Of a DNA stretch of 64,000 bases, positions 12,137-46,800 are shown piece after piece (positions within the stretch are counted from its first letter, which is position 1; each line of letters starts with the position of its first letter). The DNA is taken from the NCBI GenBank assembly GCA_009746045.1, contig RPFO01000097.1:422582-486581 (forward strand). Direction: 5' to 3'. Below the pieces are notes generated by a model. The model was not told the DNA's origin, ran no database searches, and saw only the letters and a program-made list of their open reading frames with translations. The position numbers and the translations under genes are program-made. This DNA comes from Mesostigma viride (lineage: Eukaryota > Streptophyta > Mesostigmatophyceae > Mesostigmatales > Mesostigmataceae).

Positions 12137-12916
12137 TGTAACAAGCAAAAATGACTTTGTTGTTACATCCTTTGTTTTGTGAATGTTTGGCTTTTATTTG
12201 AGGACTTTTGGATCAGTATTGAGAAAGTTATGAGGTTTCTAAGACGACGGTACTTGGAGCTGATACTTTGTCAACCAACTGATAGGAACCCTCATTGGTC
12301 GTGGCCTGATCCACGTAGGGTTGTAGTTTGTTGGCTGATACTACTGATAGGAGCCCTCATTGGTCGTGGCCTGATCCACGTGGGGTTGTAGTTTGTTAGT
12401 TGGTACTATTGAGTCTTAAATGCTCCTTTGGGACTTCAGTGCTTACGACAGATTTAGGATCTCATGGAAAGATTCTGCCAGGCTGTGTGTGGTGTTGTTC
12501 TGTTCTGTGTGACTAGGATGGATACGAAGATCTTGTATAGAATCCCATGGTTCTGATTGGTTCTCTTCAGGCTAAGGTTGGAGCAAGTTCGACAAGCACG
12601 TCGATATCAAGGACGTGGGGTCGCCATTGTTGCTACGTTGGTTTTGATTCACCATGGTATAATAAAGCTTGGCTTTGTTGTCCAATCCATAAGAGCCCCT
12701 TGGCTATAGACGTCCTTCAGTTCCACAGAGGTCGTCTATACACGAGCTTGTCTTTGTGTCTACAAGGGGTTGTGATTCCCTAAATCACGTGCTGTGGAAT
12801 TTCCATCTCAACGTTGCTCGGATACTTGAAGTTCTGCGACTCAGGAAAGCAACCCAGGTAAAAGATCTTTCATATTGGACTGTGGATGATGTTGATGATC
12901 ATTTTTAGTCGTTACA
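12137..12916 (+). repeat. 5' LTR of element 2 (780 bp)
   Basis: TGTAAC...GTTACA ends, preceded by GATGG. It is identical to the 3' LTR apart from two substitutions. It carries the same internal near-duplicate of about 66 bp around GGTCGTGGCCTGATCCACGT as LTR 1. Confidence 0.95.
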
Positions 12917-19464: not shown

Positions 19465-20244
19465 TGTAACAAGCAAAAATGACTTTGTTGTTACATCCTT
19501 TGTTTTGTGAATGTTTGGCTTTTATTTGAGGACTTTTGGATCAGTATTGAGAAAGTTATGAGGTTTCTAAGACGACGGTACTTGGAGCTGATACTTTGTC
19601 AACCAACTGATAGGAACCCTCATTGGTCGTGGCCTGATCCACGTAGGGTTGTAGTTTGTTGGCTGATACTACTGATAGGAGCCCTCATTGGTCGTGGCCT
19701 GATCCACGTGGGGTTGTAGTTTGTTAGTTGGTACTATTGAGTCTTAAATGCTCCTTTGGGACTTCAGTGCTTACGACAGATTTAGGATCTCATGGAAAGA
19801 TTCTGCCAGGCTGTGTGTGGTGTTGTTCTGTTCTGTGTGACTAGGATGGATACGAAGATCTTGTATAGAATCCCATGGTTCTGATTGGTTCTCTTCAGGC
19901 TAAGGTTGGAGCAAGTTCGACAAGCACGTCGATATCAAGGACGTGGGGTCGCCATTGTTGCTACGTTGGTTTTGATTCACCATGGTATAATAAAGCTTGG
20001 CTTTGTTGTCCAATCCATAAGAGCCCCTTGGCTATAGACGACCTTCAGTTCCACAGAGGCCGTCTATACACGAGCTTGTCTTTGTGTCTACAAGGGGTTG
20101 TGATTCCCTAAATCACGTGCTGTGGAATTTCCATCTCAACGTTGCTCGGATACTTGAAGTTCTGCGACTCAGGAAAGCAACCCAGGTAAAAGATCTTTCA
20201 TATTGGACTGTGGATGATGTTGATGATCATTTTTAGTCGTTACA
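19465..20244 (+). repeat. 3' LTR of element 2 (780 bp)
   Basis: Matches the 5' LTR with two substitutions and is followed by the GATGG duplication at 20245-20249. Confidence 0.95.
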
Positions 20245-24275: not shown

Positions 24276-27200
24276 ATGGTCGCATTTGGTAAAACACTCA
24301 AGGATGAGCACGTTCCAGAGTGGCGAGAGGCTTACGTGAACTATGAAGCGTTGAAAGCTTGCGTCGACTTGATATCCGAAGCAAGCCAAGGTACGTGTGG
24401 TTTTAGCTGGCTTCTATATTCTATGAAAGCGCTGCATCAGTCCATTTGAATCACTTGCGCTTCAGGCGCGTACTCTTGTTCCGCAACTGCCTCTGAATAT
24501 TGCCCTGTAATGAATCGGAGCGACTGAAACCATGCATGCAACGCTTAGCGTGCAATAATGCAGTAGTATGAACTTGCCACGTATGGTCTTGTTGCCATGG
24601 GAGCGGACCCGACGCTCCAGGAGAACGACGGTCCGCGCCCTCGTTGACTGCTCATGACGAAGAGACAGGGGGGAAATGGCGATTGGTGGAGCCCTCCGGA
24701 TCTGCATCTGTGGCTCCACGCGTGCACGTCTACGAGGCGTTTGGGCGGCACTGGAGCACCGTTGCGTCGTCTTGGCCATGGCAACGTCATCGCCGGTCGT
24801 CCAACCCTGTCTGCCCTGCCATCATGGTACGTGCCAGATGAGCGGTTGAGTATCATCGAGTCTTCCATACACCGATGCTTATTATATTGCCTGAGGGAAC
24901 TCATCAGGGCGTGCTTTAGCGAGGTAAGGGGCAGGGGTCATGTGAGCGGTGCCACGTCATACGTGATGAAGTCGATTGTTGTCATGAAATTGAATGCGTG
25001 GCCCCTGTCTGGTATGGTCACTGTATCGGTCTGGTTTGGTCACTGTAGTGCGTGCTACTACTCCCATCGCCGCCCATGGCGTCTACAAGGCACATCTGAT
25101 CAAGTGAAAAACTAGGTCGTAACACACCTAATTACTAGTCGAGGAAATGCAGTCAAGGGGCTCAGGTGCTTTCAGGGCTCCCTGAGTGGGTCCTTGTGAA
25201 CCGAGAAGTTATCTTTTCTTGGAAGCTTGCCATCCTTGCTTGTAAGGTGAATATGGGAACTAGTGCTGAGGCCGCCGATTCCCTTGGCTGTAGGGGGCCA
25301 AAGAACTTACTGGTAGGGGGCCTCGAGCTCGAGGACTTTGCATTTGGGAGCTATTGGCAAGCGCCATGTCGTCCGATGACTTCGCAGCATGCTACTGTAC
25401 CCCTGGGATGCAAGTCTCGTGCCCACGCGGGGCTAGGGACTGCCCCATTCTATGCCTAGTCTGTGGCCATGTGGAATATCACAAAGGGTGTAACTAACTT
25501 CATCCTATAATGGTACCTGGGAACTCAAGTCACCTGGGCTGCCCATCTTGAACAAGTAGGGAGGAAGGCACCGAACGGGACCAACCGCAGCAGTGGGCAA
25601 GTTGGTGGCTCTTCTCTAGAGTCCAGTGGCCCCTTCATTATCTTGAACGGATGCACTGAGCCCAATTTACCATATAATTGACTATATAGCCCAAAGTTTA
25701 TCATCATTTCCTAAAGAAGTTACTATACAGCCCAAAGTTTATTATCATTTCCTACAGAAGTTTCTTTGTCAAACGCTGTTGAAAATTCCCTATTGCAACG
25801 TTTGCGTTCTTTAGAAGCTTCTATTTTCAACCTCGAGAACGAATCATGGCGGCATCGGGCACAGCCAAGAGGCGCTGGTAGAGACGCCACTGTGATGGTT
25901 TATTTCCACCTAACTGTATTGACCGACTCGTAACTGTTTGGACCACAGCAGAAGATGTGTTTGGCATGCCCAAATTATTATTCCCTTCGGATGGAAGCCC
26001 ACAAGTGCAGTCAACCTATTTGTATCCTTGCCATTGTAGGGCTTGTTATGTGAGCTCCCGTTGAGTTTGGGGGGAAGTAGATGTACCCAGTATTATGTTC
26101 TGTGAAATAATATCTTGATGTTCTAAAAAGCAGGAATTCGTTCACAGTGTGGTATGCAGTTTGTTTTGCCTGCCTGCTATTGTTTGCTGGCCGTGCTCTC
26201 TTGACCAGTTAGCATGGATGATAATGATAATGGGGTTGTGGGTGAACCCTGGCAATGCCCCTAAAACCCCTCAGGCTCCGGGAGAGGCCTTTATATTCTC
26301 CCAAACCGGCTCTAAATGTGTGTGTTCCAAGCCTATCTGTGGGCTCTGGACCATGGGGCAGCCGTACTGCATCCGCTATGAGTCAGCCATGCTTTGCCCA
26401 TGCAGAGAGCCCCTCTTTGCTGAGACGCCATCATGCCCAAGCCATTGCCTAGCCATGATCATCTTCCACCCCATGTCCGCAACTTTGCACAGCTGCTGGA
26501 ATACATGGTGGTGCAGGTGCACCTCAGTTGTGCACCCCGAGTAGGTGGCAGTTTACACCAACCAGTTTACACCAACCACATGCAGGTTGTCGCCTAGAGT
26601 GTATTGAAAAGCATATGCCCCTTCTCAGGGATATGTGTTACATATCCTCCCCACGGAGGTATGTTCTTAATTATTTAATTAATTAATAATGATAATAAAG
26701 AAAAAGTATGAGTATTCGTATTATTATTCTATGTATTTAATGTTCGTTGTGTCAGATAATGATGGCCTGTACTGCAGCCAGATGGTTCCAGCAACAGTCC
26801 CGCTGGCACAGTGGGGTGTTGGGCTCAGGGTGCCCCCCTGCTTTGCTTGATTGATTCACGACCAGACTTTGCTTCATCGATTCACAACCAGGTATTTTAC
26901 GTACAACCCTGTGGCCTGATGAAAAGCTTTGTTTGATCCGGAATGTTACCCCCGGAGCTCCCAGGTGGTCCGAGAGAGCTACTGGCGTGAGAACGGGGGA
27001 AGAGAGGAGCGACTCCGCACCCGATGGAGGACCCGCCAGCACGCATCCCCTACCCACCGTGATGTCAGCGCCAGCTCAGTGAGGCCCACCCCATCGAGGA
27101 GACCGGAGGAACAAGCACAAGAACAAGAACAAGAGCAAGAGCAATTCCAGGAACAGCGTGAGGGACCTGCAGGGGCATCACCCCCTGGCAGCCCGCTGCC

Positions 27201-30200
27201 CCTGGGTGCTCCGGCCGCCCTCTTTGGCAACAATGTCGCGTGGGCGGACGCAGAGGCGGCCTTCTTTCGGAGACTGGACGCGGAGCTGAATAAGGTGGAC
27301 TGCTTCTATCAACGGTGTGTGGGGGGCGGAAGGGGGTGGGGGATTGAGTTGGGCAGGCGAGAAGGCTGGCGGGCGGGCGGGCGGGCGGGCGGGAAGGTCA
27401 GGGGCCGGGGGGTGGGGGAGGGGGCGGCAGGGTGGTGGTGGTGGGGTGCGTGGCCGCCATGTCGCGTGCGAGGGTAGACAAGGCGGACCTGCCCTATTGT
27501 CGGTGCGCAGGGAATGACACGTGGCATCTGCATGATGCCTGTCTGCGCCCAGGGTAAAGGCATGAGAGGCCTCGACGGAATGAAAAGATCAGGGGGGGGT
27601 AGGGAGAGGTGGGGGAGTGGGAGAGGATGAAGGAAGCCTAGGGGAGACATCAGGCTCGGTGAGGGTTGGGAGCTTCTGTCTGTCGACACTTTTTCTGAGC
27701 GTGTTGTTTCCCATCACCCCTTGAACTGGTTGATCGTCTTGTGCCTTCACAATCTGATGACGGATCACGAGACACTTGGCACACGTTCGTCATCCGCTCA
27801 CATCATGCCAAGCTTTTATACTGCGTGTCACTATAGTCCATATGTTGCGTCACTGTCACGCACTAAACATGCACCAGTGGTTGGATGCCTGGTAAGACAG
27901 CTTGGGTGAAGTCACGTAGTTGTTTTTCTAGAGCATGAATGTGCACTCTCTTTCTTTCATCTGTCGAAGTACTCGTATCGACGCTCCCACCCACGCCTCC
28001 ACCCACATACCTGCACTTGCACCTCTCCACATGCCCACCCAACGCCCGCTATCACACACACGCACACTTGTGCGGCTGCCAGCAAGAAGAGGGAGTGCAC
28101 CGAACGCTTCCACCAGATGGAGGAGCAGCTGCAGACGCTGCAGCGGCTGCGACAGGTCCAGGGCGGTTCCCAGGTTGGTGCCCAGGTTTCCCTGGGAGTT
28201 TCCCAGGGTTACGGTGCGGTCCCCTCGTCCTTACTAGCCAACACCGGCACCAGCATCAGCACCCACGCCAGCATGCTGGGGTCCCCATTGTGCGGGTGGA
28301 GCAGGGGTAGGGTGGATGGGCCACCGGCAGTGCTGGCAACTGCCCCTCAGGCGACAGACGCTGGCCCCAGGGTGTCCCTGGTGGAGGGTCCTGGAGGCGC
28401 GTCCACGGCCGCGGTCGGTGCAGGCAGTACATCCATTCTAGATGAGGATGCCAGAAAGTTCGCGGCGGCCATCACAGATGCTGGTGACCACAAGGGCGGT
28501 GACTCCCAGAGAAGAACGGATGCTTGTGACGCGATTGGCTTGGAAGGAGACTGGAAAGGGGCGGCCAGACCTGGGGACCGTCACTTTGACGTGTGTCAGG
28601 GGAACGATGAGATAGCGGATGGGAAGGCACCCTGTCCACCCAACCATGCTATACCAGTCAGCACTGCGGACATTGCCAGCCACCAAAAGGATTGCAGTCA
28701 CCAGGACCTGCGCCCACACCAGCTGCAGGGCGCCCACTCCAGCTATCATACTGGCAGCGCCTCCACACAAAATGGTGACGGTGACCGCGGTAGTCATGGA
28801 GCGCTGCCCCCGGCAAAGGTTTGTCGACGGCAACCGCCACAGCTGGCACGTGCCACCGCGGGGGGGAGCAGGGGGCCTTGGTCACCTGGGTCCTCCCTGG
28901 ACGAGCTCTCCCAGCCGCTCCTGGGGCATCGAGAGGGCAAGGCCTGCCGTGCCGAGGAGGGAGAGGAGGAAGGGGCAGAGAGCAAGGAGGACGAGGAGGA
29001 GGATGGCAAGGAGGAGGTGGGTAAGGGTTGTGCGGGCATGATTTTTATTATGATGATTAATGTTATGATTATTATTGCTGTTATTTTATTATAATTATTA
29101 TCATTATTTTTTTTTTTTTGGCCTTCCTTGAGCTGGCATTTGTGTGTTTCATGCTTAGAGGTCAATGTCTCTGGTTATGTGCTGGCTTGTGGGCCATTGG
29201 TACCTTGGTGGGGTTACAGGCTCGACTGCTATGCGCCTGCACCGTTCTAGTGAGGTTCTTGTGAGTGAGATCGAGCGCGAGGAAACATGCCAACCGTTGT
29301 TGGTGAGCCGCAAGCTAACGCCTCTGCCGGTTCACTTCGTTGCGTTGCCGTGTCGTGGCTGGCCTTAGTTTTTAGTGTACAGTGCGCTTTCCCAACGTAG
29401 GCAGTCTCTTGTCTACATTGTGTTTCTCGGATTATTTACATGTGGGATGCACCCGGGCCCTACTGCTTGGGGGGGAATGCATATTGCCATCACATCGTTT
29501 GTAATCACAACCACGTGTCGCAATATTTCAAACAAGCAATTCTGCCATCAAAATTAAGCATCAGGCTTGTATAATTAATCACACGTTGCATGGCCGCCAG
29601 GCGTTGACACTCCTCTTTCCCTTGTACAATCACCTGTCACCAGCTAATGCGCCCCTTCATTATATATAATGATCATAAATAATGAATTTGATGTATAGAT
29701 CACGTAGTGTTAGATCTCACAGCTCTATGTACCGCCGGCATATGGGGAGTCCTCTCCCTTGGCTCTCACCCACTGACAAGCACGCATCATCGGATGGGAG
29801 CCGCCTTGCGAAGCCGTAGGATATCCTTTTCACCCGGTTGTCCTGCTCACCCTCACAGGTGTTTACCTTCCCCTTCCCCTTGCCCTCCTGCTACCACTAA
29901 TTCGTGCATTGCAGGACCTTGTATTGCAATCATGCGTCACAACGCACAGCTCCACCGCAGGCGTCCACGCTCCCTTTCTTTCCACTAATCAATGCACCGC
30001 ATGAAATATCACATATGACCATCACACGGCTCCACCGCAGGCGTACGCGCTCTCTTTTCCCTCAGGTCTCATCGACGCGCTGCGACGGGGGCGGGGCGTG
30101 CGCAAGCTTGCCCGCGCGCAGGCCATGCTGGAGCTGGCGATTGGAGAGCTGCACTACGCGTTGATGTGCCTGAACAGCTACGGGTGTGTGGGGTTGTGGG

Positions 30201-30488
30201 GGGGGAATGACTTTACGCGCTTGCCCGCTTGCGCTGTAAGGGTGCGCTGTGAGGGTGGGTGGGGTAAAAGAGCGATAGGGGACCCCCCTATGTGTCATCC
30301 TGCAGAGCTGCGGCTGCGTGTGATACTACTGCAGGGAGATGGAACTGCACCACGCACTGGCCTGCTTGAATAGCTACGGGTGGCCAAGAAGTACTGGGGG
30401 GTGGGACTGCATCGTGCTGGCCTGCCTGAACAGCCACTAGTGCGTGGGGTAGCAGTAGGGGACGATCGTGTGTGTGCGTGAGGTTTTT

Positions 30489-30530
<42 letters not shown>

Positions 30531-33500
30531 TGTGTCACTGTGTGTGTGTTTGTGTGTGTTTGTGTGTGTGCGTGTGTGTGCGTGTTTGTTCGTGTGTGTG
30601 TGTGTGTTTGTGTGTCACTGTGTGTGTGCGTGTGTTTGTGTGTTTTCTTGTGTGTGTGTGTGTGCGTGTGTGTGCGTGTTTGTTCGTGTGTGTGTGTGTT
30701 TGTGTGTCACTGTGTGTGTGCGTGTGTTTGTGTGTTTTCTTGTGTGTGTGTGTGTGCGTGTGTGTGCGTGTTTGTTCGTGTGTGTGTGTGTGTTTGTGTG
30801 TCACTGTGTGTGTGCGTGTGTTTGTGTGTTTTCTTGTGTGTGTGTGTGTGCGTGTGTGTGCGTGTTTGTTCGTGTGTGTGTGTGTTTGTGTGTCACTGTG
30901 TGTGTGCGTGTGTTTGTGTGTTTTCTTGTGTGTGTGTGTGTGCTGTGACAGCTGCGGGTGCTTATGGCAGCACAGTCGGCAGGGACGCGGGTCACCGCTA
31001 CGGGTGCGTGGGGTACTGGGAGGGGAACAGCACATCAGGCTTGCCTGCGTGCGCTGTAAGGGTGCGCTGTGAGGGTGCGCGGGGTAAAATATGATGGGCC
31101 ACGGTCTGCCGTTTGCTTGTAACATGCTAGGCGTATGGGTACGCTGATCAATAATAGGGTAAGAGGTTTATCGGTGCATTCTCTGAATAGGACAAGCCTC
31201 AGTCCGCCGTTAACTGCTTGTGACATGCACAGCATCTACAAGCAGGTTGTGCCTGTGACATGCTCCACTTGTGGGTATGCCTGTCATCAGTAGGGAAAGG
31301 GCACGATGCCCTTTCCTTTAAGGGCACGCTTTAAGGGCGCGATGCCCTTTGACGAGCTGAAACACTCCCAGTGGAACTAGAGGGCAGCATGATAGTGGTC
31401 ACCCTGTTTGAAGTTAGCACGGCAGCATGAGTATCACAGCTTCAGCACGTGCGCGGCACATGAAATGCACCGGTGTCAACTCAGCACAACACAAGGTCTT
31501 CATACGCCCCCGGTGGTTGGGTGGATCCATTCCAGCAGATCGCATGCATGCACTGCAGAAAAAGGTTTTAGTCTTAATCCTTTGATTTTTTTAATGTTAA
31601 GGTTCAAGGAACAGCCAGGCTGGCTTTGCTCATGGTCTGCTTGCCTACTTGCTGCCCCGATTGCTGCACGCCATGTCGGGCCGGCAGGTACCTGAACGCG
31701 CTGGCGATTGCCAAGATCCTCAAGAAGCACGACAAGGTGAGTTTGGGGGGGGGGGGGGGGGGCGGAAGGGAATAGGGACCATGTGCTCAGAAGCACCGCG
31801 GGAGCTTGTTTGTCAATCTAATTGCCTAGGTCCTCAGGAAGCACAGCAACGTGAGGTCACTCTACGGGTGGGTTACAGACCGTTAGACCATAAGCACCAT
31901 GGGATGTGCTTAGGGCCTTTACGCCTTGAGCGTTTGTTGGGAATCCACAGGAGGGTCATCTGGCGGAGCGGACTAGGCAGTGGGTGCATGGGGATGATGG
32001 GCCGGTGGTGATCGGCCAGCTGTCGGGACTGCATGTGGCGCGTGAGACTATCACCGTTGTGCCTTTGTTTTGTGATACATCAGTAGAGCTAGTAGGACAA
32101 AGGTTTAGGTTGAGATTGATATTGATGTTCATCAGTATTCATGTCGTACAGTGGCTTCGATTAGAGATAAGTATTTTGATAGAAACTCACGAGTCAGTAT
32201 TGAGCATGTTCATTGTACAACCTCGTCCTCGTCCTGATCATCACAGACGGTGCCCTGCCTTTCGTAGTGTGTCAGCTAAGGTGGGGGCCGGGAATATGGA
32301 CGGTCCGTTCGCAGAAATACGAGCAGAAAGACAACGTGTCTGGCCTATGTGGTTGCGCTCGTCTGGCTTTCTGGGCTTGCGTGTGCCAGGTGGCGGGCTG
32401 GTGCGCCCTCGAGCCGTACCTGGATGCCGTGCGCCAAGCGGAGTTCGCGAGCTCGACAGAGGTATACGCGGCATCCACACCCACTGTGTAATAACACGTG
32501 CATGCGGTCAAGATGGTGCATGGATGCTGCCATGTTACAGGGCGTGGAAATGGAGTAATTAAGTTGCACAGTGACAGCGTTGAAATGGGCTGACCTTGAG
32601 ATGCTTGGAATATGCTTTGCAGCGAGAGTGCGGCCCCGGGCCGTGTCCCTGGACCCACTCTGCGGATGCAGGCATCAACAACCTGTTGAAGTTATTTTTC
32701 ATGCTTGTGTTAGTGTCTGTCATTTATTTTTAATGTGTGTGTTGGTGTCTGTCTGCCAGATACTGATGCATGGGGCGCTCCTGCCCCGTTAGCTAGCTAG
32801 GTGCCAAGTAGCCTTGGCAGCCCTCCATGCAGCCCGGTGACTCCCTTTGCCCGTTCCCCCCCCTACCCCTACCCCTACCCCATATCCCCTTCTCCTCTAC
32901 CCTTCTTTCCGCTCCCATTCTTCCTTCTTCCTCCCTGTCTTGCTGCATGCCCATTCCCGCATGCAGGCCATACATCTTCAAGGTTGAATTGCATGTCTTG
33001 GCTGTGCTCTGCTCGGACCCGTGACGGTGCTCATCGTGTCTTGGTGCTCTGGCTCAGCCGGTGACGGTGCTTTGGCTCTGCATGCATGCCTACCCCAAAT
33101 CATAGCCAAGTCATTTATCCTGCAATGGCAGATCTTGATGCAGGTGTCAGGAGCCGAGCGGCAAAAGGATTTCTGCAAATATTTAACTAACTCCTTGCTG
33201 GGCCCATCATGTCCTTGCCCTTGCTGGATGCCCAGGGGAAAGTTCAAGGTTGTATTATGGGACGAGTGCTGGGCCCCAGCATGGTGACAAAGCCAACTTG
33301 ATGATGGTTTGTACGATGATTTTGATGGTGTGGCTAAGGCCCCGCTACAAAGCCTAGCACACATGTATTGTAATAAAGATTGTTTCTCATGATAGGGGTT
33401 GGTACTCCCATTGCCCAAAGCTATTAATCAACCATATCCCCCTCTAGTGACTAAATGGTTGCATGGGGCATGATGCAGACGATATTCGTAGCTTCCGTGT

Positions 33501-34790
33501 TATGATTTTTCTAATGATACTAGCATAGTTCTGCATGGCATGCCCATGCGCATGACACCATGCGCAAAACTTCATCCATCATGTCCTTGCCCGGGTGCTG
33601 CATGCTTGTGCCGATGCCGTAACACCCACAATTACCGCAGGTAACCGTCCTCGTCCAGCGAGTTGAAGACGAGTTTTCAGCGTGAGTCGTTTGACCCATC
33701 ACGCCATCCCCAACCTGATACCACCGATAGCACATATACCACCTATTTATGGCACCTATACCACCTATTTATGGCACATATACCACCTATTTATGGCACA
33801 TATACCACCTATTTATGGCACCTATATCACCTATTTATGGCACCTATATCACCTATGTATGGCACCTATACCACCTACTTATGGCACATATACCACCTAT
33901 TCATGGCACCTGTCGCACCTATTTATGGCACCTGTCGCGCCTATTTATGGCACCTATATCTCCTATGTATGGCACCTATATCTCCTATTTATGGCACCTA
34001 TATCACCTACTTATGGCACTTCTATCACCTATTTGTGGCACCCATATCACCTATTTGTGGCACCTATATCACCTATTTATGGCACCTGTCGCGCCTATTT
34101 ATGGCACCTATATCACCTATGTATGGCACCTATATCACCTATTTATGGCACCCATATCACCTATTTGTGGCACCTGTCGCACCTATTTGTGGCACCTATA
34201 TCACCTATGTATGGCACCTATATCACCTACCTATGGCACCCATATCACCTATTTATGGCACCTGTCGCACCTATTTATGGCACCTGTATCACCTATTCAT
34301 GGCACCTGTCGCACCTATTTGTGGCACCTATATCACCTATTTATGGCACCTGTCGCATCTATAGCACCTACCGCACCTATAGCACAAGTCACGCAAGCAC
34401 GAGTCACGTGCCCTGTTCAACTAGTATCAGCCCTTCAATTATTAAGTGTAACTAGTTGGATGGTACGCCGCAAGACCCGTCAGGGTCTTAACTAAGCAAG
34501 AGGCTTTTGGCTTTTCTGTCTGGTTTGTCCACTAGAGTCTAACTACCTGAGGAGGCATGAAGGAACGTTTCTAGGGAGGGACGTTTCGTGCTGTGAGTTC
34601 TCAACATGGCCAATGAGTATGTCCTAGAGTGAGCCGTTGGCATGGGTAAAGTGCTTGACAAGTTTGCTTCTTTTAGAAGGAATTGCTAATAAATACGTTT
34701 TCTGGGTATTTCTGTTCCCAGTTTGATATCTTTGGTACTCAGTATACTCCAAAATGTATGTTTATTTTCTAACTTATCAATCACCAGGAG

Positions 34791-34843
<53 letters not shown>

Positions 34844-37800
34844 TCCTCCTCCTCCTCCTCCTCCTCCTCCTCCTCCTCCTCCTCCTCCTCCTCCTCCTCC
34901 TCCTCCTCCTCCTCCTCCTCCTCCTCCTCCTCCTCCTCCTCCTCCTCCTCCTCCTCCTCCTCCTCCTCCTCCTCCTCCTCCTCCTCCTCCTCCTCCTCCT
35001 CCTCCTCCTCCTCCTCCTCCTCCTCCTCCTGCTGCTGCTGCTGCTGCTGCTGCCACTGCTGCTGCTATTACTATGAATATCGCAACTACTTCCACTAGTA
35101 CAGCCAACAAGGTAACGTTAATAACACTTAATAAACTTTCGTCGACAAGTAGAGCTCGCTACTGAACACATGTGTGGCTTTCTCAGTACCGAAAGGGGCA
35201 CGTGGACTTGTCAACCATTTTTTTGTTATATACTACTATACCATTATTGCTGATGAGGGCGCTCTGCATTCATGAGTGGTAAGCCCATCACAAGGCACAC
35301 AGGGACGCAGCCACCGTGCTTGATTTGCGCAGTCGACCTAGTCTAGGTTGCTTTGAAGATGGGTTGGATGCACAGCCCATCTTTGGGCTGGCGGTCATCA
35401 TCATGCGCATTAATGCTATTCGTGACGTACCCGTATTGGGCTGCCATGCACCACCACCATGGGACTGCATCCTCCCTCGCGCACCCCAGGTACCTCTCGC
35501 AGGAACCGGGGCAGCTCACGCGCAGTCTGCGGGTGGTCCGCCCGTCCACCTCCCACTGCATGAGCTTCACGCTAGGTAGGGTTAGCGAGCCAGGCAAGAC
35601 CAATGGGTTGTGGCGTATCCTCTCACGTGTCCTGTACAAACTAAGTACGTCCCGTGGCATGAGTGTCACGCTAGTGGCTAAGATTAGATCGAGGGCACAC
35701 GCGTGGTCGCAGGCGCGTGGCACATATGTTTTGTAACTTTGTTGTTATTGGTTCTTCAAATGCACACTAGTACTACTAATATTAATATTAATACATATAT
35801 ACTACGGTATAATTTTGTTTTAATTTTTCGATAGATAGCGTGACCTTCTCCCTGTCTGTGTGCATGTGCATAGTAGGTTCCTGGTACATCGTGACAATCC
35901 CTATGACTTGCTGGGGCATGTGCGGTCGAGTGGGCCCTACTGGCACGCATCTCATCCAACAAGGCACCACACGGTCATGTAACTTTGTGAGCTCATGCTC
36001 GTATTATCTATTACTTGCGGATGTCTCAAAGGGGGAGGGGCGGCCGCAGTAGGCAGCCCGACTAGAGGAGAGGGGGGGTAAGTGTGGACCAGGGGTGGCA
36101 CGGCGCCACTGGCCCTTTGGCCAGTGGGCTGGCGCGCGCCATGGTGCCTTTGGCCTCTCGGTCAGTGGGCCGGCATGCGCCACCCCAGGGCGGTCCAGCT
36201 ACTTGGGGTTGTTGCAGTGCCACAACCCGACCTCTTTGCAGCTCCCACCCGCCCTCCCTCGCTGCTTGAGGGGTTACAAGTCCAGGTCCTCATGACTGGC
36301 CCAGGTGAAATGGCCCTGGTGATGTGGTGTCCTAGCCCCCTGTTGGGTGGCCTAGCTAGACTAGATTCTCAGATTGGCTACGGCCTTGACGGGGGCTTAT
36401 CACCCATATGTAAAACAGCTGTTCTTTCTGGAAGCCCCTCACTCCAAGGGGCAGAAGCAATAGTTGGAGCAGACAAGACAAGACGCTCCCTTGGTGGTAT
36501 CTTCCATGTGGCCCGTGTGAATGCATGTCATATCAGGTAGGCGCAGGGCGTCTCAATTGTTCGTCGTGCAGGGACTCGATGGCACTTTGGCATATCATCA
36601 ACACTTCACCAGTTATAATGTCCTTCTAATATTACCAAGAATTTACTGTGTACTGTGCTAGTATTAAGATTGCACATATGTGCTACTGCTGCTGCTGCTG
36701 TGCGGGGGCACGCCCCTGCAGCATGTATTCCACACATTGTAGGGGAATTTGTGGCAAGCTCTTGGTTTCTCGGGGGTCTTGAATTTTGCCTATTATACTG
36801 ATAAGCACGGGTCCTGGTGTGGGGCATGGGGCATGGGGCATGGCGCATGGGGCATGGGGCATGGGGCATGGGGCATGGGGCATGGGGCATGGGGCATGGG
36901 GCATGGGGCATGGGGCATGGGGCATGGGGCATGGGGCATGGGGCATGGGGCATGGGGCATGGGGCATGGGGCATGGGGCATGGGGCATGGGGCATGGGGC
37001 ATGGGGCATGGGGCATGGGGCATGGGGCATGGGGCATGGGGCATGGGGCATGGGGCATGGGGCATGGGGCATGGGGTCTTGGGGGTGTCGGCCGCGCAGG
37101 TGCCCTCATGGGCGTCTTGTGTTGCCTGCTGGCATACTTGGCGTTGCTGCTGGACAACGGACCTCCTCAACCAGAGCCCAGAGAGCGCTTCCTGCAGTCA
37201 GTGTTTCCTGTCTACCGGTGAGTTTGGTTCTGCCATGATGGCATAGTAGTTGGTATGATGGTGTATGTACGATGGCATAAATAAGGCATATCTCTTTCGA
37301 ACGTGAGTGGGAGCAATTCCTACAGTCGGTGTTCCCCGTGTACGAGTCTGTTCCGGTTTGTTGCCACGGTGTCATTGGACACATCTCTAGATTGCTATTC
37401 ATCTATTTGTTTATTTGTTTGTTTGTTATTGTTATGTGTGGGTACTGTTTATTTGTATGTTTGTTATTGTTATGTGTGGGAACACCTCCCAAAGTCGGGT
37501 GCTACATTCATGTTGTGGTGATTAATGTTCTGCTTGTCTGCCAAGTTGTGAGTGTGTAAAGATACTACATCCTCGTTTGCGTAACAAACATCCTCTGAAG
37601 TTACCCGTTGCGTCACTGTGGGCGTTCAAGGCCTTTGTTCGCATGTTCTATAATGCCATTTCAGCCACTGAAGTGTATTGATCCGGCATTTCGTTTCGTA
37701 CTGCAAGGTAACTTACGCGGTTGTAGGAAGTGTTGCACTGTCAGCCCATCATCGTTTTAGTTTGGGCGAGCAAGGCGTCATTGTTGATGCATAATACCCC

Positions 37801-40800
37801 AAGCTGCCATTGCCTTGTCTCTGACCTACCCCTACCATAGAAGCTGTCTTACACTTTCTGTAAGCATTGCAGCCCTTTCACACCCTGTGAATGCCGTGAA
37901 GGGTGTGAGAAAGCCGAACTGACCCCACCCTTGCATGTGGCTAGGGGGACTGACGTTTGCATGGGGTGGCTACGCGTTCCCTTCCGCCATGGCATAGTGG
38001 GCTATCCCACCACAATAGCGGTAGGACAATGGCGCCTTAGGTCGAGGAGACGGATGCGTTCGTGTTGGCAGCGACACTCCCCCATGCACCATGCAGGGTG
38101 GTTGCGCGTACGCGCCGTCCATGCCACGTGATGCCTGATGGCCTGTGTGATGGCCGGCCCGTGGGATGGCCCATGCATGTGGTGGCCTATGTGATTGTGG
38201 GCCTCATCTTGGGCTTTCATGGCCAGCTCATGCAACAAACAATCCCTTTGGTTCAGAAAATTAGAAATGATACTTTTGAGTCATCAAACGTTTCCTTTTG
38301 AGCAATCAACCTTAGTACTTTTGATTTGGGTATCTATAGGTTGCAAGGCTACATCCTCTGGCGAAGGCTCTATCCTCCCCCCCCCCCCCCTGATTCCTGC
38401 ACGCACATGCTCCCTTGTGCCCCCACCCATCACCAGCAGTGGTCAACGTCATCATCCTCTTCAGTTATGGTTGCTCGTGCACGCGCATGCTCCCTTGTGC
38501 CCACCCCCGTCACACGCAGCGGCCTGCTTCTCATCATCCTCCATTTTCTCGTCTACGGGCTGGACCTGCTGGTCTTTGCACGGGCACGCATCAACTACCC
38601 GTTCATATTCGGCTTCCGACGAGGGACAGGTGACGTCTTGTTTCTTATTTTGTTTTGCTGCTGCATGTGATGTTTTGTTTCTTGTTTTGTTTAATTGCTG
38701 CTTGCCATGCTGCGGCCGCCGACTATGGCGCGCGCGATAGGCGGTGTTGTGATCGGTGGCCCAAGCTTGGCAGATTACTCCACCTTTCTGCGCAGCGAGA
38801 GCGTGAAATACGGAAAATGCCCAAGCCCTTCAACCATGCCTGGGCTCTTTGCCTTTGTCATGATGCCGTGTGCTACCAGAGCTGTCAGTCCCCAGTTCTT
38901 GCCGCGCTATGCCGCCATGCCGTCTGCCACATGTGCCGTGTGCAAGCAGAGCTTACAGGACCCCAGTTCCTGCTGTCGGCAACCGCCGCGGGCGCCCTGG
39001 TGCTGACTGCGCTCATTGGGCACCTGACTCTGCAGCAGCTGGGGCCCAGCTCACCCTGGGGGTGGCTAGGCCCGCTGCACCCCTACCTGGACCTCACGCC
39101 AGGTGTGCTGCTGCTGGTGAGTCATGGGTGGCTAGAGAGCTTCTATGTTGGTAACCTGACTAGAATAGAATAGCCCAACAGACAGCCCCGTACTGTACAG
39201 GCTGCCGTTGCATGGTGAGCGTGGCATGCGATGAAATGTGCTCGTGCCTTGGTTGTCATCAAGAGATTGTCCATGGTTTTTGAGAGGCATGGACCAAACC
39301 TGTGGTGCGCACTGAAAGAAAATCAATATCGCTACGAACGGTTTTCTTTCAACAACTTTGCCACTGTTTAGGTTTATATTGTGTCGTTGGGATTTTCTGG
39401 AATAGAGAAGAGCTTGCGTGAACTATCTGATCCAAGTGGCCCAGCATGGCCACGTAAGATGCCGGCAAAAGCGTCGCCAATGTGCGTCTGGCGGTGGCCG
39501 AAAGATGCCGTCTCGGGAACGGCTGCGTGCCCCGCATCGTTTTTGGTAGGAAGGTGTCGTGACGAAAACAATCGGACTCAGCAGACCCCTTGCTTTTCTC
39601 TTTGCGGGGAGGCAATAGCGGGCTAGACTTGCATCTGCTTTGGTCGGGGTATGGCTCTTCCACCCAGGGCTTGCTCGTTGCTCTACTAGTGCAGTAGTTT
39701 CTTTGACTGTGATTCCAGTAGGGTTTGTTATGAACTCTACTCAGACTTTTTGCCTTCCTTAGGCTATTATTTTGCTGTGCACAGCGCTCCCCATCTGGCC
39801 CTGGTTGTATGCCTCACCCAGACCCTCCCCCCAGACGTTCCTGGCCGTCATTGTCTCCTTTCCTACTGCTCCCCCCCGTGCCCCCCACTTTCGCTTCTCC
39901 CTGTCCCCCTCCTTTTGGCCCCTCCGCGCACCCTTCCTTAATTTGCTCCCCCCCCCTCCTCTTCGCTTTCCCTCGCCCCCGTCCTTTTTGTTCCCCCCCG
40001 TCTCCCATTGTACGCATGCCCCAACCCCCCCCCAGCTGTTCCTGGGGATCTTCCTGTGCCCCTTCAACGTGTGCTGGCGCCCCTCCCGCGCCTTCTTCCT
40101 GCGCACGATGGGGCGCATCGCGTGCGCTCCTTTCTTTACGGTGGGTTGCCGCTGTTGTGACCTGCTAGCTCCATTCCTTGTCTTGGTGGATGGGGTGCAT
40201 CACGCACGCTCCCTTGTTTACAGTGGGTTGGCCCTGGCCTTACTTAATGTAGAGTGCCATTTATGTGTCAACCCATATGGATAAGTTAGGCACACTTTCA
40301 TACATGATACTCCTAGAAATTTAATAGCAGCAGTAGTATATAATAGAATTCCAAACTAGTATATATAAGGATTATTATTATTGTCAGATTATTATTATTT
40401 TCTTCAGGTATCTTCTTTTCGGGGTTTAATTAATTAATTAATTTTCGGGGTATGTTGCATGCCACTCTCACCTCCGTAATTCATCATTCTCAATTAATAT
40501 GTAAGGATAAGTTAGGCGCACTCAGGGGTGTGTTCATTCCATATTTGGTCTTTTATGACCGTTAATGGCCGTCTTTCACGACTGCGTGCCATCTGTCACA
40601 CCCTGCCGGGGTATCGTACCTTGCCTAGCCACTCTCAGGGCTGTGGGAACTACCTAGATCCTTTCTGTTAAGTCCTGGAACAGTGAGATCCACAGTCCCA
40701 CCTATCCCCAGGCAATAGCTACCCAGAACTTCTGTCGAGATGGCGCCCACCAAGTGCATAACTATCTCCACATGAAAGACCTGAGGGGGGACTTCGAAGC

Positions 40801-43800
40801 CCTCGCCCTCGCCTAGTTCCCTGCCTCTCCGGGTGTCACTGTGCACATGCAGCTGTATGTTCACAACTTCAGGGCTCTCTTGCTAATCTGTTCGTTGCAA
40901 AGTCCCCAGAGTATTCCTTGCGATGAATTGACTAATGGTAGCCAATGGTAGCTAATAATGGTAGCTCATGGTAGCTAATGGTAGCTAATGGTAGCTAATG
41001 GTAGCTAATGGCAGCTAATGGCAGCTAATGGCAGCTCATGGCAGCTAATGGTAGCTAATGGTAGCTAATGGTAGCTCATGGTAGCTCATGGTAGCTAATG
41101 GTAGCTAATGGCAGCTAATGGTAGCTAATGGTAGCTAATGGTAGCTCATGGTAGCTCATGGTAGCTAATGGTAGCTAATGGCAGCTCATGGTAGCTAATG
41201 GCAGCTCATGGTAGCTAATGGTAGCTAATGGTAGCTAATGGCAGCTAATGGTAGCTCATGGTAGCTAATGGCAGCTAATGGTAGCTCATGGTAGCTAATG
41301 GTTACTAGCTAATGGTAGCTAATGGTAGCTAATGGTAGCTAATGGTAGCTAATGGCAGCTAATGGTAGCTCATGGTAGCTAATGGCAGCTAATGGTAGCT
41401 CATGGTAGCTAATGGTTACTAGCTAATGGCAGCTAATGGTAGCTAATGGCAGCTCATGGTAGCTAATGGTAGCTAATGGTAGCTAATGGTAGCTAATGGT
41501 AGCTAATGATAGCTAATGCAGGTAGCTCATGGTAGCTAATGGTAGCTAATGGTAGCTCATGGTAGCTAATGGTAGCTAATGGTAGCTATTGGTACCTAAT
41601 GGTAGCTAATGGTAGCTAATGGTAGCTAATGGCAGTTAATGGTAGCTAATGGTAGCTAATGGTAGCTCATGGCAGCTAATGGCAGCTAATGGCAGCTCAT
41701 GGCAGCTAATGGTAGCTAATGGTAGCTAATGGTAGCTCATGGTAGCTCATGGTAGCTAATGGTAGCTAATGGCAGCTAATGGTAGCTAATGGTAGCTAAT
41801 GGTAGCTAATGGTAGCTAATGGCAAGCTAACGGTAGCTAATGGTAGCTAATGGTAGCTCATGGTAGCTAATGGTAGCTAATGGTAGCTAACGGTAGCTAA
41901 TGTTTAGAGCTGTGGGGGTCCAGGCTGTGAAATGGGCACCAATCTTTGCCCCGATTTTCTTCTGCCATCTTTTCCGATTGGGAAGAACTGCCAGCATTTC
42001 CAGTACAGTACGAGTAGTTTCCCGTGCTTCTAGTTTCTTATGCTGCTGCTGCCTCCTCGTGTTGCACTTGTCACCCCGGATTCTGCGGTGGCTTGCTTGG
42101 CGTTGGTGTTGCGGCTGGCAGGTGGTATTTGCAGACTTCTTTTTGGGAGACCAGCTGACCAGCCAGGTAAAGGGTTAGGGTTAGGGTTAGGGTTAGGGTT
42201 AGGGTTTAGGGTAAAGGCTCGGCTGTTTGGGCTAGTGACTTGGGACAGGTGCTTACAGCACCGGAAGAGTGTAGTCAAGGGCTTAAGACAAGTCGACCCA
42301 GGAGGGCCTGGTGGGCAGAGCGGAGCTGATATGAGATGTAAGGGCAGTAAGGCGTCACAATCCCTTGGACTTACTAGCCACTTCAGTAGCAACTTTATCT
42401 AGTTGCTTTTCCACAAAGAGGCCTTGTTCGCTTTGGCTTGTATATTTGACATGCCGCAGTAGCTCTGCAGTCATGCGACGTGATGTTATGCCTGGCTCCT
42501 GTGGCGTACGATAACTTTTCTTACTGCTGCATACTTCGTTTATTCGCATGCCTATGTTGCATGCCCTGTCGGTGCCACGAGCCTGGCTCTTTTGTGTTAC
42601 GATAGTCATTCTTATAGCTGTCAATCAGTTTCCTGCCCCGCCCCGCCCCGCCCCGCCCCGCCCCGCCCCGCCCCGCCCCGCCCCGCCCCGCCCCGCCCCG
42701 CCCCGCCCCGCCCCGCCCCGCCGCCCCGCCCCGCCCCGCCCCGCCCCGCCCCGCCCCGCCCCGCCCCGCCCCGCCCCGCCCCGCCCCGCCCCGCCCCGCC
42801 CCGCCCCGCCCCGCCCCGCCCCGCCCCCGCCCCGCCCCGCCCCGCCCCGCCCCGCCCGCCCCGCCCCGCCCCGCCCCGCCCCGCCCCGCCCCGCCCCGCC
42901 CCGCCCCGCCCCGCCCCGCCCGCCCCGCCCGCCCCGCCCCGCCCCGCCCCGCCCCGCCCCGCCCCGCCCCGCCCCGCCCCGCCCCGCCCCGCCCCGCCCC
43001 GCCCCGCCCCGCCCCGCCCCGCCCCGCCCCGCCCCGCCCCGCCCCGCCCCGCCCCGCCCCGCCCCGCCCCGCCCCGCCCCGCCCCGCCCCGCCCCGCCCC
43101 GCCCCGCCCCGCCCCGCCCGCCCCGCCCCGCCCGCCCCGCCCCGCCCCGCCCCGCCCCCCCGCCCCGCCCCGCCCGCCCCGCCCCGCCCCGCCCCGCCCC
43201 GCCCCGCCCCGCCCCGCCCCGCCCCGCCCCGCCGCCCCGCCCCGCCCCGCCCCGCCCCGCCCCGCCCCGCCCCGCCCCGCCCCGCCCCGCCCCGCCCCGC
43301 CCCGCCCCGCCCCGCCCCGCCCCGCCCCGCCCCGCCCCGCCCCGCCGCCCCGCCCCGCCCCGCCCCGCCCCGCCCCGCCCCGCCCCGCCCCGCCCGCCCC
43401 GCCCCGCCCCGCCCCGCCCCGCCCCGCCCCGCCCCGCCCCAGCCCGCCCCGCCCCGCCCCGCCCCAGCCAGCCCCGCCCTCTGATATTCAGTGCGCAGGT
43501 TTAGTCCTTCCACGACCTGCTTTATCGAATATTTGCTATATGCTATAACCCTTAAGTGTATTTGTTATTTTTTCTTTAATATTTGCTATCACTAGCCCTT
43601 CCTTGCCCTGCCTGCGTCCTATCATTCGCGCGCAGGTCCGCTCCTTCCACGACCTGCACTACGGCTTCTGCTACTACGCGGGCGGAAGCTTTAGGACCGA
43701 GGCGTGGGCCCCCTGCCGCGATAGCGCCACATTCACCGCGCACAACCTCTACGTCGGCCTGCTGCCATTTGTGTGGCGCCTGCTGCAGGTACCGGCGACG

Positions 43801-46800
43801 CGTATCTGACCCGTATCTCCAGTTTTCTTTACTAAGTACTACGTCCCCTGCTCTGTCTATGCTTGGTCCTTTCGGTTTGTGCATTACCAATGTTCCTAAC
43901 TGCTTGGTCCATATTCTGTTTGTGCGTGACTGATATGTCCTTATAACTGCTTGGTCCCTATTCTGTTTGTGCGTGACTGATATGTCCTTATAACTGCTTG
44001 GTCCCTATTCTGTTTGTGCATGACCAATATCCCTATCTATGGTAAGACCATGCTTCCATGGTCCTTAGCCGGACCATGGTCTCTAGTTAATCTTGCCCCT
44101 AGTCGCCCCTAGTCTAGGGGCTAGACTTCCAGTCAAATCTGACCCCTATCGTACCCTGTTCGATTCTGATCCTTTCCTTATTGTGTGTGTTTGGTGAGCC
44201 TTTCCTTATTGTGTGTGTTTGGTGAGCCTTTGCTTATTGTGAGTGTTTGGTGAGCCTTTCCTTATTGTGTGTGTTTGGTGAGCCTTTCCTTATTGTGTGT
44301 GTTTGGTGAGCCTTTCCTTATTGTGTGTGTTTGGTGAGCCTTTCCTTATTGTGTGTGTTTGGTGAGCCTTTCCTTAATTTAGGTTTGACCTAAGCCTTTC
44401 ATTATTATGTTTGGTAAGCCTTTACCTGTCATGCATCCGTAGGATGTAATTAATTAATGAATTAAACACGTGCTCCCGTTGGGGAGTCACGGAGCACCGA
44501 AGTGCTTGTAATCCCTGTGTGTGCACTACAGGAGAAAGGGCAGAGACCCCCAGTCTCCTTCATGCCAAAGGCATGCCACAGCTGCATTCGGGCGCGCTAG
44601 CTAAACACACACAGGCTAACGATCCGGCAAACTGTGGGTGCAATAAGACCTATGTAAGCGTGGCATAACAAGTATAGCGTGGGCAAGTAATCTGAACATA
44701 GCCAGGGCGTAGCATGGCTGTACTAGGACTAGGCTAAGGCTATGGCTGGTTGTGTACCGTGCGTTGGCGGCACGTGACTAGGTATGTTGGCACAGCTAGG
44801 CAAACATTCTAGGCATGGCTCCGTAGGATGTAGGTCTACACATCAGCGAAAGTGCCACGCAATATCCAGCAAACGTGCGCAGCATTACACATCCAGCTGC
44901 TGTTTTTGTCTGCACAGCTGTAGACAGCCAGCTCTTTTGTTTGTCCTTACCCGGCTTTTGTCTTTGTGGTGGTTGTCTTTACGAATGTTGCGTGACACAC
45001 CCGCATCTCTTGCGAATGTTGCATCTCCTTGCATCCCTTCAAATGTGAAGTGCCTGTGATGCGCCTTACACAGATTTTGATGCTTCTGGTCCTTTAGAAT
45101 GTTCTGGACGACTTGATTTGCAATTGAAAGTGCCTCTGCCTGACTGGTGTGCAGTGCCTGAGGCGCTGGGTGTATGGCCGGTCCCACCCATTAGATAAAT
45201 GAGGCAAAGCATAAATTGTTTTTGTCCTTGATCAGCCACTGTATTTGCATCCGCCTCTTCCTTTTATCTTCGGCAGTGCCTGCGGCGCTACGTTCGCGGC
45301 CAATGGCACGCAGTATAGACATCAGCTGCAAGCAGCAAGCTTTTTGTCCTTGACACTTCCGCTACTTTACTTGCCCCTGCCTCTCTCCCTTCTTCGTGGC
45401 ACTGCCTGCGGCGTTACGCGCACGGTCGATTGCACCCAACAGACAAACGCTGTGGAAGTTTTTGAACTTTGTCACGTTGAAACCACCCTAATTCCTTTGC
45501 TTGCCTCTTATTCCATTCCTCCGCCCTAACTAACTCTATTGCTTGCTTCCAGATGCCCCTTAATTGTTTCCTCCATCCTTAACTCCATTGCTTGCCTCTG
45601 CCCCTAAATCATTTCCGCCGCCCTGACTCCTTTGCTTGCTTCTGCCGCTTAATTGATCGTTGCCTCCACCTTACATAACACCTTTGCTTGCCCCTGCCCC
45701 TTAATCGTATCCTCCACCTTGAACTCAGGACTCTGCTTGCCTCTGCCTCTTTGCCGTCTCCTGTGCAGTGCCTGCGGCGCTACGGCCACGGCCGGTCCCA
45801 CCCGGTCGAGCGGCTGCAGCTGGTCAACGCGGGCAAGTATGCGGCGGCGTGCGGTGTGCTGGTGGCACGCCACATACACAAACACGTGGGTGCGTGCGGC
45901 CGGCTGAACATGTGCGGTATTTGAATGTCTCTGATCGCACTAGTATCTCGGTAGCTATGTAGACTGTGTGGTCTAATGTAGGCTGTGGTTCAAGTTGCCT
46001 TCCAAGCAGTGGAGAGTGTGCCGCGTGCCATGCAGTGTCATGTGCGGTATGTGAAATACAGCTAGTGATAATTGCTGTTGTTAAACGTGAGAGGTTCCTA
46101 ATCTGGTTGGGAAAATATTACAGAATCATCAATGTATTCCCCTGCAGCTCCTCCACTTTTTTATTGAGAGCTCGATCTAAGCAAATTGTTTGGGCGCTGA
46201 ATCAACCATGTTTATTCGTTCCTTAAATTGTTCGATGATCCCAGCTCATATTATCCGTGCAAGATGAGCTGACAACATGAAGTAAGTAAGTAAGTACTTG
46301 CGTGTCATGCGCAAAGGCATGCCACGGAGTACTATGCTAATCTCATTAGAAAAATAATTACACAAAAGTTTAAACAAATTAATATCGTCTGCATCATCCC
46401 CCAACCGTTAAGCACTAGATGGGGATGTAATCCTCATCCGACACACACACAACATGAATGTTTTGTTTTGTTTCATCTTGCCATGCATCATCTAGCAGGG
46501 ATTTTGCAGGTATAAATTGGGCTGGAGTCAACCCCAAGTTGGGCTGAATCAGCCCAGATGGTCGCCATAAATTTGAGCTTCCTGAACAAGGGACGCATTT
46601 CTTTCCCTAATGGTGCACAGAGAATCGCTGGAAGTGGCCAGGGCAGCAAATCAACACAGGGTAGCCATGGAGACCAACCGAATGCATATGTAGGTTGCCT
46701 GGGGATGTCAGTTTGCTGGCGGTCATGCCTCCTGCGAGCGTTGTAGTCTGTGAAGTAAAACGGTAGGACTCATCTATATACCTTGGTGCATATTTGTCGC

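Follow-up and report, generated by a model that had tools for sequence, protein, structure and literature searches.

Because intron DNA decays, it is difficult to trace how introns become longer without transposons; a conserved exon edge keeps one side of each duplication, which makes the process countable. An exporter gene of Mesostigma viride raises the question of whether such a record exists. The original prediction, made from the DNA letters, was that at least nine of its exon edges have a second, decayed copy in the neighbouring intron (here called an echo), in the same orientation, upstream for acceptor edges and downstream for donor edges, and that these copies point to repeated local tandem duplication at the junctions as a route of intron growth. 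We analysed these edges in the window, a stretch of 64,000 nucleotides (contig RPFO01000097.1, positions 422,582 to 486,581), and extended the analysis to other genes of the same genome.

Results

The exporter has both domains that define the SPX-EXS class, as Pfam profiles for EXS (1.9e-67, 228.3 bits) and SPX (5.1e-9, 37 bits) both exceeded the cut-off, and its nearest solved relative is of the plant PHO1 type (PHO1 homolog 1, E 3.7e-57). The reading frame is open from exon 3 to the stop. The short exon 13 brings the total to 19, so that the exon numbers originally given (4, 5, 9, 10, 11, 12 twice, 14 and 15) fit; no echo of exon 13 itself was found when sought on both sides.

Table 1. Exporter gene, its echoes and related repeats (positions in the window)
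Feature	Position	Strand	Matching segment	Identity	p	Remarks
SPX-EXS (PHO1/XPR1-like) exporter gene, 19 exons	24276..52492	+				exon 2 start uncertain
Intron-only pair	29945..30057	+	29945-29977 / 30025-30057	29/33		upstream of exon 4
Exon 4 donor edge, echo 1	30342..30382	+	30146-30186	32/41		
Exon 4 donor edge, echo 2	30423..30450	+	30167-30194	24/28		
Exon 4 donor edge, echo 3	30994..31098	+	30174-30279	84/105 aligned columns; core 66/75		includes ~95 bp of intron
Exon 5 donor edge, echo	31821..31855	+	31707-31741	29/35	8.9e-7	in-frame TAG inside
Exon 8 donor edge, echo	35657..35674	+		16/18	0.0021	absent from original prediction
Exon 9 donor edge, echo	37311..37343	+	37183-37215	26/33	0.0012	
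Exon 10 acceptor edge, echo	38406..38459	+		44/54	8.5e-9	offset ~80 bp; exon bases alone 5/100 shuffles
Exon 11 acceptor edge, echo	38859..38902	+	38930-38973	37/43	1.4e-7	exon bases alone 5/100 shuffles
Exon 12 acceptor edge, echo	39805..39844	+	40008-40045	32/38	0.0008	exon bases alone n.s. (26/100)
Intron-only near-tandem pair	39867..40000	+	39867-39926 / 39944-40000	48/54		
Exon 12 donor edge, echo	40189..40236	+	40107-40154	39/48	8.3e-9	
Exon 13	42122..42166	+				45 bp, 15 residues; absent from 18-exon working model
Exon 14 acceptor edge, echo	43486..43520	+	43624-43657	29/34	3.8e-6	
Exon 15 acceptor edge, echo 1	45131..45189	+	45744-45803	48/58		
Exon 15 acceptor edge, echo 2	45245..45301	+		43/57		
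Exon 15 acceptor edge, echo 3	45370..45437	+		54/67	1.1e-10	acceptor AG -> AC
Degenerate tandem array	45554..45751	+		69% matches		44-bp unit, 4.2 copies; stops 18 bp short of exon 15
Donor edge at 47144, weak echo	47902..47925	+		20/24	0.0014	absent from original prediction

Homology was detectable over about 18-105 bp per echo, and the edges of exons 4 and 15 have three echoes apiece (Table 1). A tandem-repeat finder reported, in the window, the 44-bp array and a two-copy 37-bp array at the exon 10 donor; the old echoes otherwise went unreported.

Each edge (query of at most 45 exon and 35 intron bases) was compared with the adjacent introns and with 200 shuffles, matches at p<0.01 being counted. 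All nine edges named originally have their copy on the predicted side (p 1e-10 to 0.0012). Across the exporter, the expected side gave 14 matches in 33 comparisons (11 with exon bases, 3 in intron only), against 1 in 32 on the wrong side, where the match was that of exon 5, 49 bp long, with its own donor-side echo. The fixed polarity was thus borne out, as was the common orientation, since reverse-complement queries matched in only 1 of 33 expected-side and 0 of 32 wrong-side comparisons. In a further test, exon bases alone were compared with the neighbouring introns (34 comparisons, 100 dinucleotide shuffles each). None of the 100 shuffles equalled the real score downstream of exons 4, 5, 8, 9 and 12 or upstream of the exons at 43636 and 45769, and these seven matches fall on the exon end that was predicted, or close to it. 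Judged on exon bases, the exon 10 and exon 11 acceptors have weak echoes and the exon 12 acceptor no significant one; intron bases contribute to the support for all three. Taken together, the matches were not equalled in shuffled introns, the control named in advance; a weak echo taken singly, that of exon 8 or of the donor at 47144, could be a chance match.

The same pattern was found elsewhere in this 440-Mb genome; its absence from other intron-rich genes had been named in advance as a refutation. In six chaperonin loci the expected side matched at 21 of 62 edges and the wrong side at 1 of 62, a count in which the acceptor edge of L032 exon 4 was misplaced (later analyses used the right position). 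Exons in 200 kb of contig flanking the window gave 10/29 against 2/29. Pooling the three gene samples, we found expected-side matches in 45 of 124 comparisons and wrong-side matches in 4 of 123; exon bases were included in 36 of the 45 and, on the wrong side, only in the match of exon 5 to its own echo. Reverse-complement matches at p<0.01 numbered 3/124 and 3/123, respectively. No copy was detectable on the expected side of 79 of the 124 edges, and none was found for the 3 exons searched in a second EXS-family gene. Edges beyond the window were predicted from profile hits or coding-like segments together with splice consensus. The chaperonin loci were 6 of about eleven with hits, picked on their exon-hit counts while their sequence was still unseen; the 23 flanking-contig exons were selected by eye among the best 70 of 139 coding-like segments, with low-splice-score edges excluded and 4 comparisons omitted owing to masking. 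Exporter and chaperonin edges were reused in the array, codon-position, interior-tile and distance-profile analyses.

Two nearly uniform arrays lie across exon edges. On the donor side, the L034 array (48-bp unit, 10.1 copies, 97%) begins within the final 31 exon bases, and the DNA that follows it is single copy genome-wide. On the acceptor side, the L015/L016 array (80-bp unit, 5.2 copies, 98%) spans the acceptor. These are young cases, which show how an edge duplication is born. At another, intronic locus, the copy number of a 43-bp tandem unit differs between two near-identical contigs, which are probably two haplotypes. Local duplications also occur in introns only and in intergenic DNA and, judged by eye, single edges outside the exporter can likewise have multiple decayed copies.

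For codon positions and distances we started from 35 edges at p<0.01 and removed the 10 rows whose alignment had under 8 exon columns (among them 3 in which target and query overlapped, at offset 0, and 1 plain intronic array). Mismatches between echo and exon numbered 32/226, 31/226 and 69/221 at codon positions 1, 2 and 3, a pattern that fits an exon under constraint and a copy free to decay. Echoes lie 48-820 bp from their edge (median 99), 20 of 25 within 48-144, and the splice dinucleotide is retained in 20 of 24 aligned echoes. The echo of L035 has a core of 38/40 identities over 40 bp at an offset of 96, and that of L032 a core of 49 bp at an offset of 106. By eye, weak homology at L035 runs past the core, which is better kept around the edge than its flanks are, and the L032 spacer contains a reduced copy.

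Origin of the echoes

These observations are best explained by a general process of short tandem duplication on which splicing acts as a filter, and in our judgement this explanation is probably right. Tandem copying of short units, mostly of about 50-150 bp, would take place within introns and between genes of this genome, the probable mechanism being slippage or unequal exchange of the kind seen in minisatellites. A unit lying across a donor would leave its extra copies downstream, and use of the first donor would yield a normal mRNA; a unit across an acceptor would leave them upstream, with the last acceptor used to the same effect. Duplications at edges would be tolerated and those inside exons purged. 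The fixed polarity then needs no special mechanism, because splicing would tolerate only that arrangement, and since the spare copies decay unconstrained while the used edge is conserved, an old copy would remain recognizable as an echo. Use of the exon-proximal site, purging within exons and slippage are steps that we infer. The proposal of local tandem duplication at junctions, with decay of the spare copy, is upheld by the controls, the other genes, the codon positions and the young arrays; such duplications are, however, found in places other than exon edges as well. Several findings run against this explanation: some well-kept cores are shorter than their offset, as at L035, which is not expected of a plain tandem copy; the third-position mismatch is slightly above the value for a fully neutral echo; 79 of the 124 edges, and the 3 exons of the second EXS-family gene, show no copy; and edges exceed interiors, which is not expected of a uniform process.

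This last excess raises the possibility, which we regard as doubtful, that edges are in addition preferred sites of duplication, through DNA structures linked to transcription or splicing or through nucleosome edges. Detectable copies were found at 38 of 89 edges against 71 of 436 intron-interior tiles, and at 36/87 against 47/402 (2.6-3.5 times), the interior rate being raised by tiles that include echo pieces and parts of the L034 array. A simulated uniform process gave an edge-to-interior ratio of 0.98-1.04, reaching 1.86 once indels were made frequent and events of an age below t=0.1 were omitted. Part of the excess is thus unexplained, although it falls to about 1.4-1.9-fold under that harshest setting. 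With 60-bp tiles, copies were detected for 32/76 at the edge, 14/68 to 19/70 for tiles starting 15-105 bp into the intron and 16/186 at 200-300 bp; the profile is, however, not monotonic, since deeper tiles gave 58/292 (300-500 bp) and 52/368 (more than 500 bp). That a small sample held both a young donor array and a young acceptor array favours preferred edges, but among the listed arrays with a period of at least 20, only that of L034 crosses an edge; another two stop no more than 3 bp from one. Moreover, insertions renew intron interiors (of two near-identical contigs, one has about 3.1 kb that the other lacks), leaving less time there to gather old duplicates. We therefore advance only tentatively the idea that edges are hot spots, where duplications arise or are retained at about 2-3.5 times the uniform rate (1.4-1.9 times in the harshest case), that intron lengthening proceeds inward from the ends and that a sizeable share of edges holds a fossil record of this. 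If so, edge arrays would be ready spare splice sites, and units of 3n bp, as at L034, could serve as a source of protein segments that contain repeats.

Templated insertion during break repair, in which nearby DNA is copied some 100 bases off and so spaced rather than tandem, would account for the cores at L035 and L032 that are shorter than their offsets. We find it improbable: in both of the youngest cases the units follow one another head to tail, inverted copies are rare, and the weak homology beyond the L035 core and the reduced copy in the L032 spacer speak against it.

It is very unlikely that selection keeps the echoes for a function, whether as splice sites (alternative or decoy) or as alternative ends of exons. 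The retained splice dinucleotides and the well-kept L035 edge core would agree with this, as would a third-position mismatch of 0.312, slightly above the 0.25 expected (by hand arithmetic) for a fully neutral echo. The dinucleotide count, however, is not clearly above what decay predicts, the alignments being anchored there; positions 1 and 2 mismatch alike, and the copies are partial; some have an in-frame stop, as in the exon 5 echo, or have lost the splice site, as in echo 3 of exon 15. A role as functional coding sequence was rejected on the codon positions and the stop in the exon 5 echo. Chance or low-complexity matching, which repeat-rich introns might favour, is ruled out for the set as a whole by the shuffle, wrong-side and reverse-complement controls and retains a negligible probability.

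Discussion

Under tandem duplication filtered by splicing, introns may grow in part by edge duplication, and a net growth by this route is what we infer from the sequences. Echoes could mislead gene finders into false exon ends and false splice sites, and could offer spare splice sites to alternative splicing. Among titles and abstract openings in the duplication-mechanism literature we found no description of edge echoes.

Minisatellites (VNTRs) are head-to-tail arrays of near-identical units of tens of base pairs, and their copy number is polymorphic. Unit size and head-to-tail copies are alike here, and at one intronic locus the 43-bp unit differs in copy number between near-identical contigs. 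By their layout the L034 and L015/L016 arrays are of the minisatellite kind, the old window echoes not; the units here, unlike minisatellites, straddle splice edges, and one copy is held by selection while the rest decay past repeat-finder detection. In tandem exon duplication, including mutually exclusive exons, exon sequence is duplicated beside the original. Whole-exon duplication was rejected here: significant exon-only matches in the exporter cover one exon end and never both splice sites. Gao and Lynch (2009), a study that PMC4974935 and PMC3488318 cite, reportedly described internal gene duplication in eukaryotes, with exon-containing duplications and intron creation; partial within-gene duplications are frequent there as here, and the added point here is decayed edge copies that would record intron lengthening. 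Introners place the same sequence in many unrelated introns; the echoes match their own exon edge, and the flank after the L034 array, which was searched genome-wide, is single copy. Intron gain by the Rogers model, in which an exonic AGGT segment becomes a new intron within an exon, was likewise rejected, as the units here straddle an existing edge and lie within the intron. A potato RdRp gene underwent local tandem duplication with splice signals, and its unit resembles our acceptor echoes in joining the 3' side of an intron to the 5' side of the exon that follows (PMC4974935). That duplication inserted an exon and created a further intron, whereas here the spare copy lies inside an existing intron and exon number stays constant.

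Echoes at exon edges of the exporter and of other genes

The exporter protein matched the Pfam families EXS (1.9e-67) and SPX (5.1e-9), and its best solved relative was PHO1 homolog 1 (E 3.7e-57). A gap in the alignment to the latter pointed to a further exon of 45 bp, whose addition brings the exon total to 19, so that the numbering used in the original prediction fits. The genome comprises 439.9 Mb in 2243 contigs; coordinates are collected in the table.

Features in the window and at other loci of the genome (bare coordinates count from the window start)
Feature	Location	Strand	Description
Window	C2078:422582-486581
Exporter exons	24276-52492	+	Frame stays open from exon 3 through to the stop
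45-bp exon	42122-42166	+	Exporter exon
Simple-sequence arrays	49390-51036, 42635-43479, 40932-41902, 34840-35030, 36820-37076		Long arrays in exporter introns; units of 6 bp (over 1.6 kb), 5 bp (0.8 kb) and 10 bp (1 kb), also 3 and 7 bp
Tandem pairs	29945-30057, 38627-38692		Intron-only or nearly so; adjoin exon 4 acceptor and exon 10 donor, respectively
Leucine-rich-repeat-like frame	20540-22603	-	Intronless, 687 codons; F-box/LRR by eye
65-bp unit, two-copy tandem	9589-9723, 12278-12412, 19606-19740		About the same unit at each place; retroelement-like part of the window
L034 array (C1702)	L034:4183-4669		Across a donor
L015/L016 border array	C2078:546361-546780		Across an acceptor
L036	C1641:63500-68000		Chaperonin gene
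L037	C887:345800-347100		Same chaperonin gene
L020 segments	L020:860-1372, 3011-3673	+, -	Near-identical coding segments, an inverted duplication

We compared exon-only queries with the neighbouring introns at 34 exporter exon sides, with tandem arrays masked and against 100 dinucleotide shuffles. The real score exceeded all 100 shuffles at seven sides, and these matches lay at or near the predicted exon end, 3′ ends being copied downstream and 5′ ends upstream. To this extent the proposed echoes, decayed extra copies of exon-intron edges inside adjacent introns, withstood shuffling; on exon bases alone, however, the echoes at the acceptors of exons 10 and 11 (5 of 100 shuffles each) were weak and that at the exon 12 acceptor (26 of 100) was not significant. 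With edge queries (at most 45 bases of exon and 35 of intron round each edge, p<0.01), matches were found on the expected side, downstream of donors and upstream of acceptors, in 14 of 33 comparisons; the wrong side had a match in 1 of 32. This one came from exon 5, which is 49 bp long, and was to that exon's own echo. Reverse-complement queries gave 1/33 and 0/32. All nine edges named in the original prediction are among the 14, and its claims of polarity and of uniform orientation hold. Exons 4 and 15 have three echoes apiece.

The pattern was also found in other genes. Chaperonin (PF00118) exons were located across the genome (58 hits); six loci were chosen without sight of their sequence, and profile hits and splice consensus served to place the edges. 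Here the expected side matched in 21 of 62 comparisons and the wrong side in 1 of 62 (reverse complement, 1/62 and 0/62). In 200 kb of flanking contig, the exons selected gave 10/29 versus 2/29 (reverse complement, 1 and 3). None of three exons of a second EXS-family gene had echoes in six comparisons. Summed over the three samples, leaving out that gene as a test of another form, the counts were 45/124 versus 4/123; exon bases were included in 36 of the 45 matches and, among the four wrong-side ones, only in that of exon 5.

Decay and origin of the copies

For the 35 exporter and chaperonin edges with a copy at p<0.01, we took the best echo per edge, keeping the 25 edges whose echo aligned over 8 or more exon columns. 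Mismatches at codon positions 1, 2 and 3 were 32/226, 31/226 and 69/221 (exporter alone, 15 echoes: 31/160, 29/161 and 47/150). Equal mismatch at the first two positions indicates that the echo copy is free of coding constraint, and the third-position surplus is the contribution of the conserved exon. The third-position value slightly exceeds the 0.25 calculated under strict neutrality of the copy; this hints weakly at constraint in the past, or else at third positions that change faster. The splice dinucleotide was kept in 20 of 24 echoes, not clearly above what decay permits.

Judging from which splice site would restore the mRNA, polarity and orientation may be explained without any special mechanism. 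If a unit straddling a donor were duplicated, normal mRNA would arise only via the first donor, leaving spare copies downstream in the intron; if it straddled an acceptor, only the last acceptor would serve and the spares would lie upstream. Duplications within exons would alter the protein and be lost.

Young arrays show the same polarity, lying downstream of a donor in L034 and upstream of an acceptor at the L015/L016 border. The former has a 48-bp unit (10.1 copies, 97%) made of the last 31 exon bases, the donor and the first intron bases; the latter has an 80-bp unit (5.2 copies, 98%) that spans the acceptor, from the last 47 intron bases into the first 33 of a coding-like exon. The L034 unit is divisible by three, and none of the copies read showed an in-frame stop; its inner donors, if used, would lengthen a chaperonin subunit by repeats of 16 residues. 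Echo offsets (median 99 bp) were 48-144 bp in 20 of 25 cases, so old and young units share one size class. Two other loci, L032 and L030, have by eye several decayed copies after a single donor and look like intermediate stages. Contigs C1641 and C887 are 97-99% identical over one chaperonin gene (L036 and L037) and probably represent the two haplotypes. Their numbers of a 43-bp tandem unit in an intron differ by one copy. In addition, one intron contains about 3.1 kb of extra sequence in only one of the contigs; it has a repeated end segment and resembles a recent retroelement insertion. Local duplication thus appears recent in this genome.

Enrichment at edges

Local duplication also occurs within introns and between genes. 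Direct copies (p<0.001) were found for 19/64 edge, 63/411 intron, 34/726 intergenic and 1/44 exon-interior tiles; inverted copies for 0/64, 2/411, 39/726 and 2/44, respectively. Masking short-period arrays alone gave 38/89 edges versus 71/436 interiors, and masking arrays above four copies too, 36/87 versus 47/402. Simulated uniform tandem duplication with constrained exons gave edge/interior ratios of 0.98-1.04, rising to at most 1.86 with young events omitted and frequent indels; indels are scarce between C1641 and C887 (1 to 19 mismatches), which favours the lower end. The edge excess is about 2.5-3.6-fold over the simulated expectation, and 1.4-1.9-fold in the harshest setting. It could reflect renewal of intron interiors by insertions, or a real preference of duplication for edges. 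Among 60-bp tiles, copies were found for 32/76 at the edge and for 14/68 to 19/70 of those whose start lies 15-105 bp into the intron; the rate was 16/186 for tiles 200-300 bp in, but 58/292 for those 300-500 bp in and 52/368 for those farther away.

Relation to known duplications

Minisatellites are well known. Tandem duplication is an established source of new introns, according to PMC4974935, which covers the Rogers model and the ATP2A1 and potato RdRp cases and also describes an 83-bp tandem duplication within an intron. None of the papers listed by our literature searches on the mechanism, which covered few subscription papers, presented in its title or the opening of its abstract decayed copies of exon edges as a polarised, recurring trace of how introns lengthen. 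Duplication followed by decay very probably explains the echoes; local tandem duplication and minisatellites are the known part of this explanation, and decayed exon-edge copies, recurrent and polarised, as a putative record of the lengthening of introns are what it adds.
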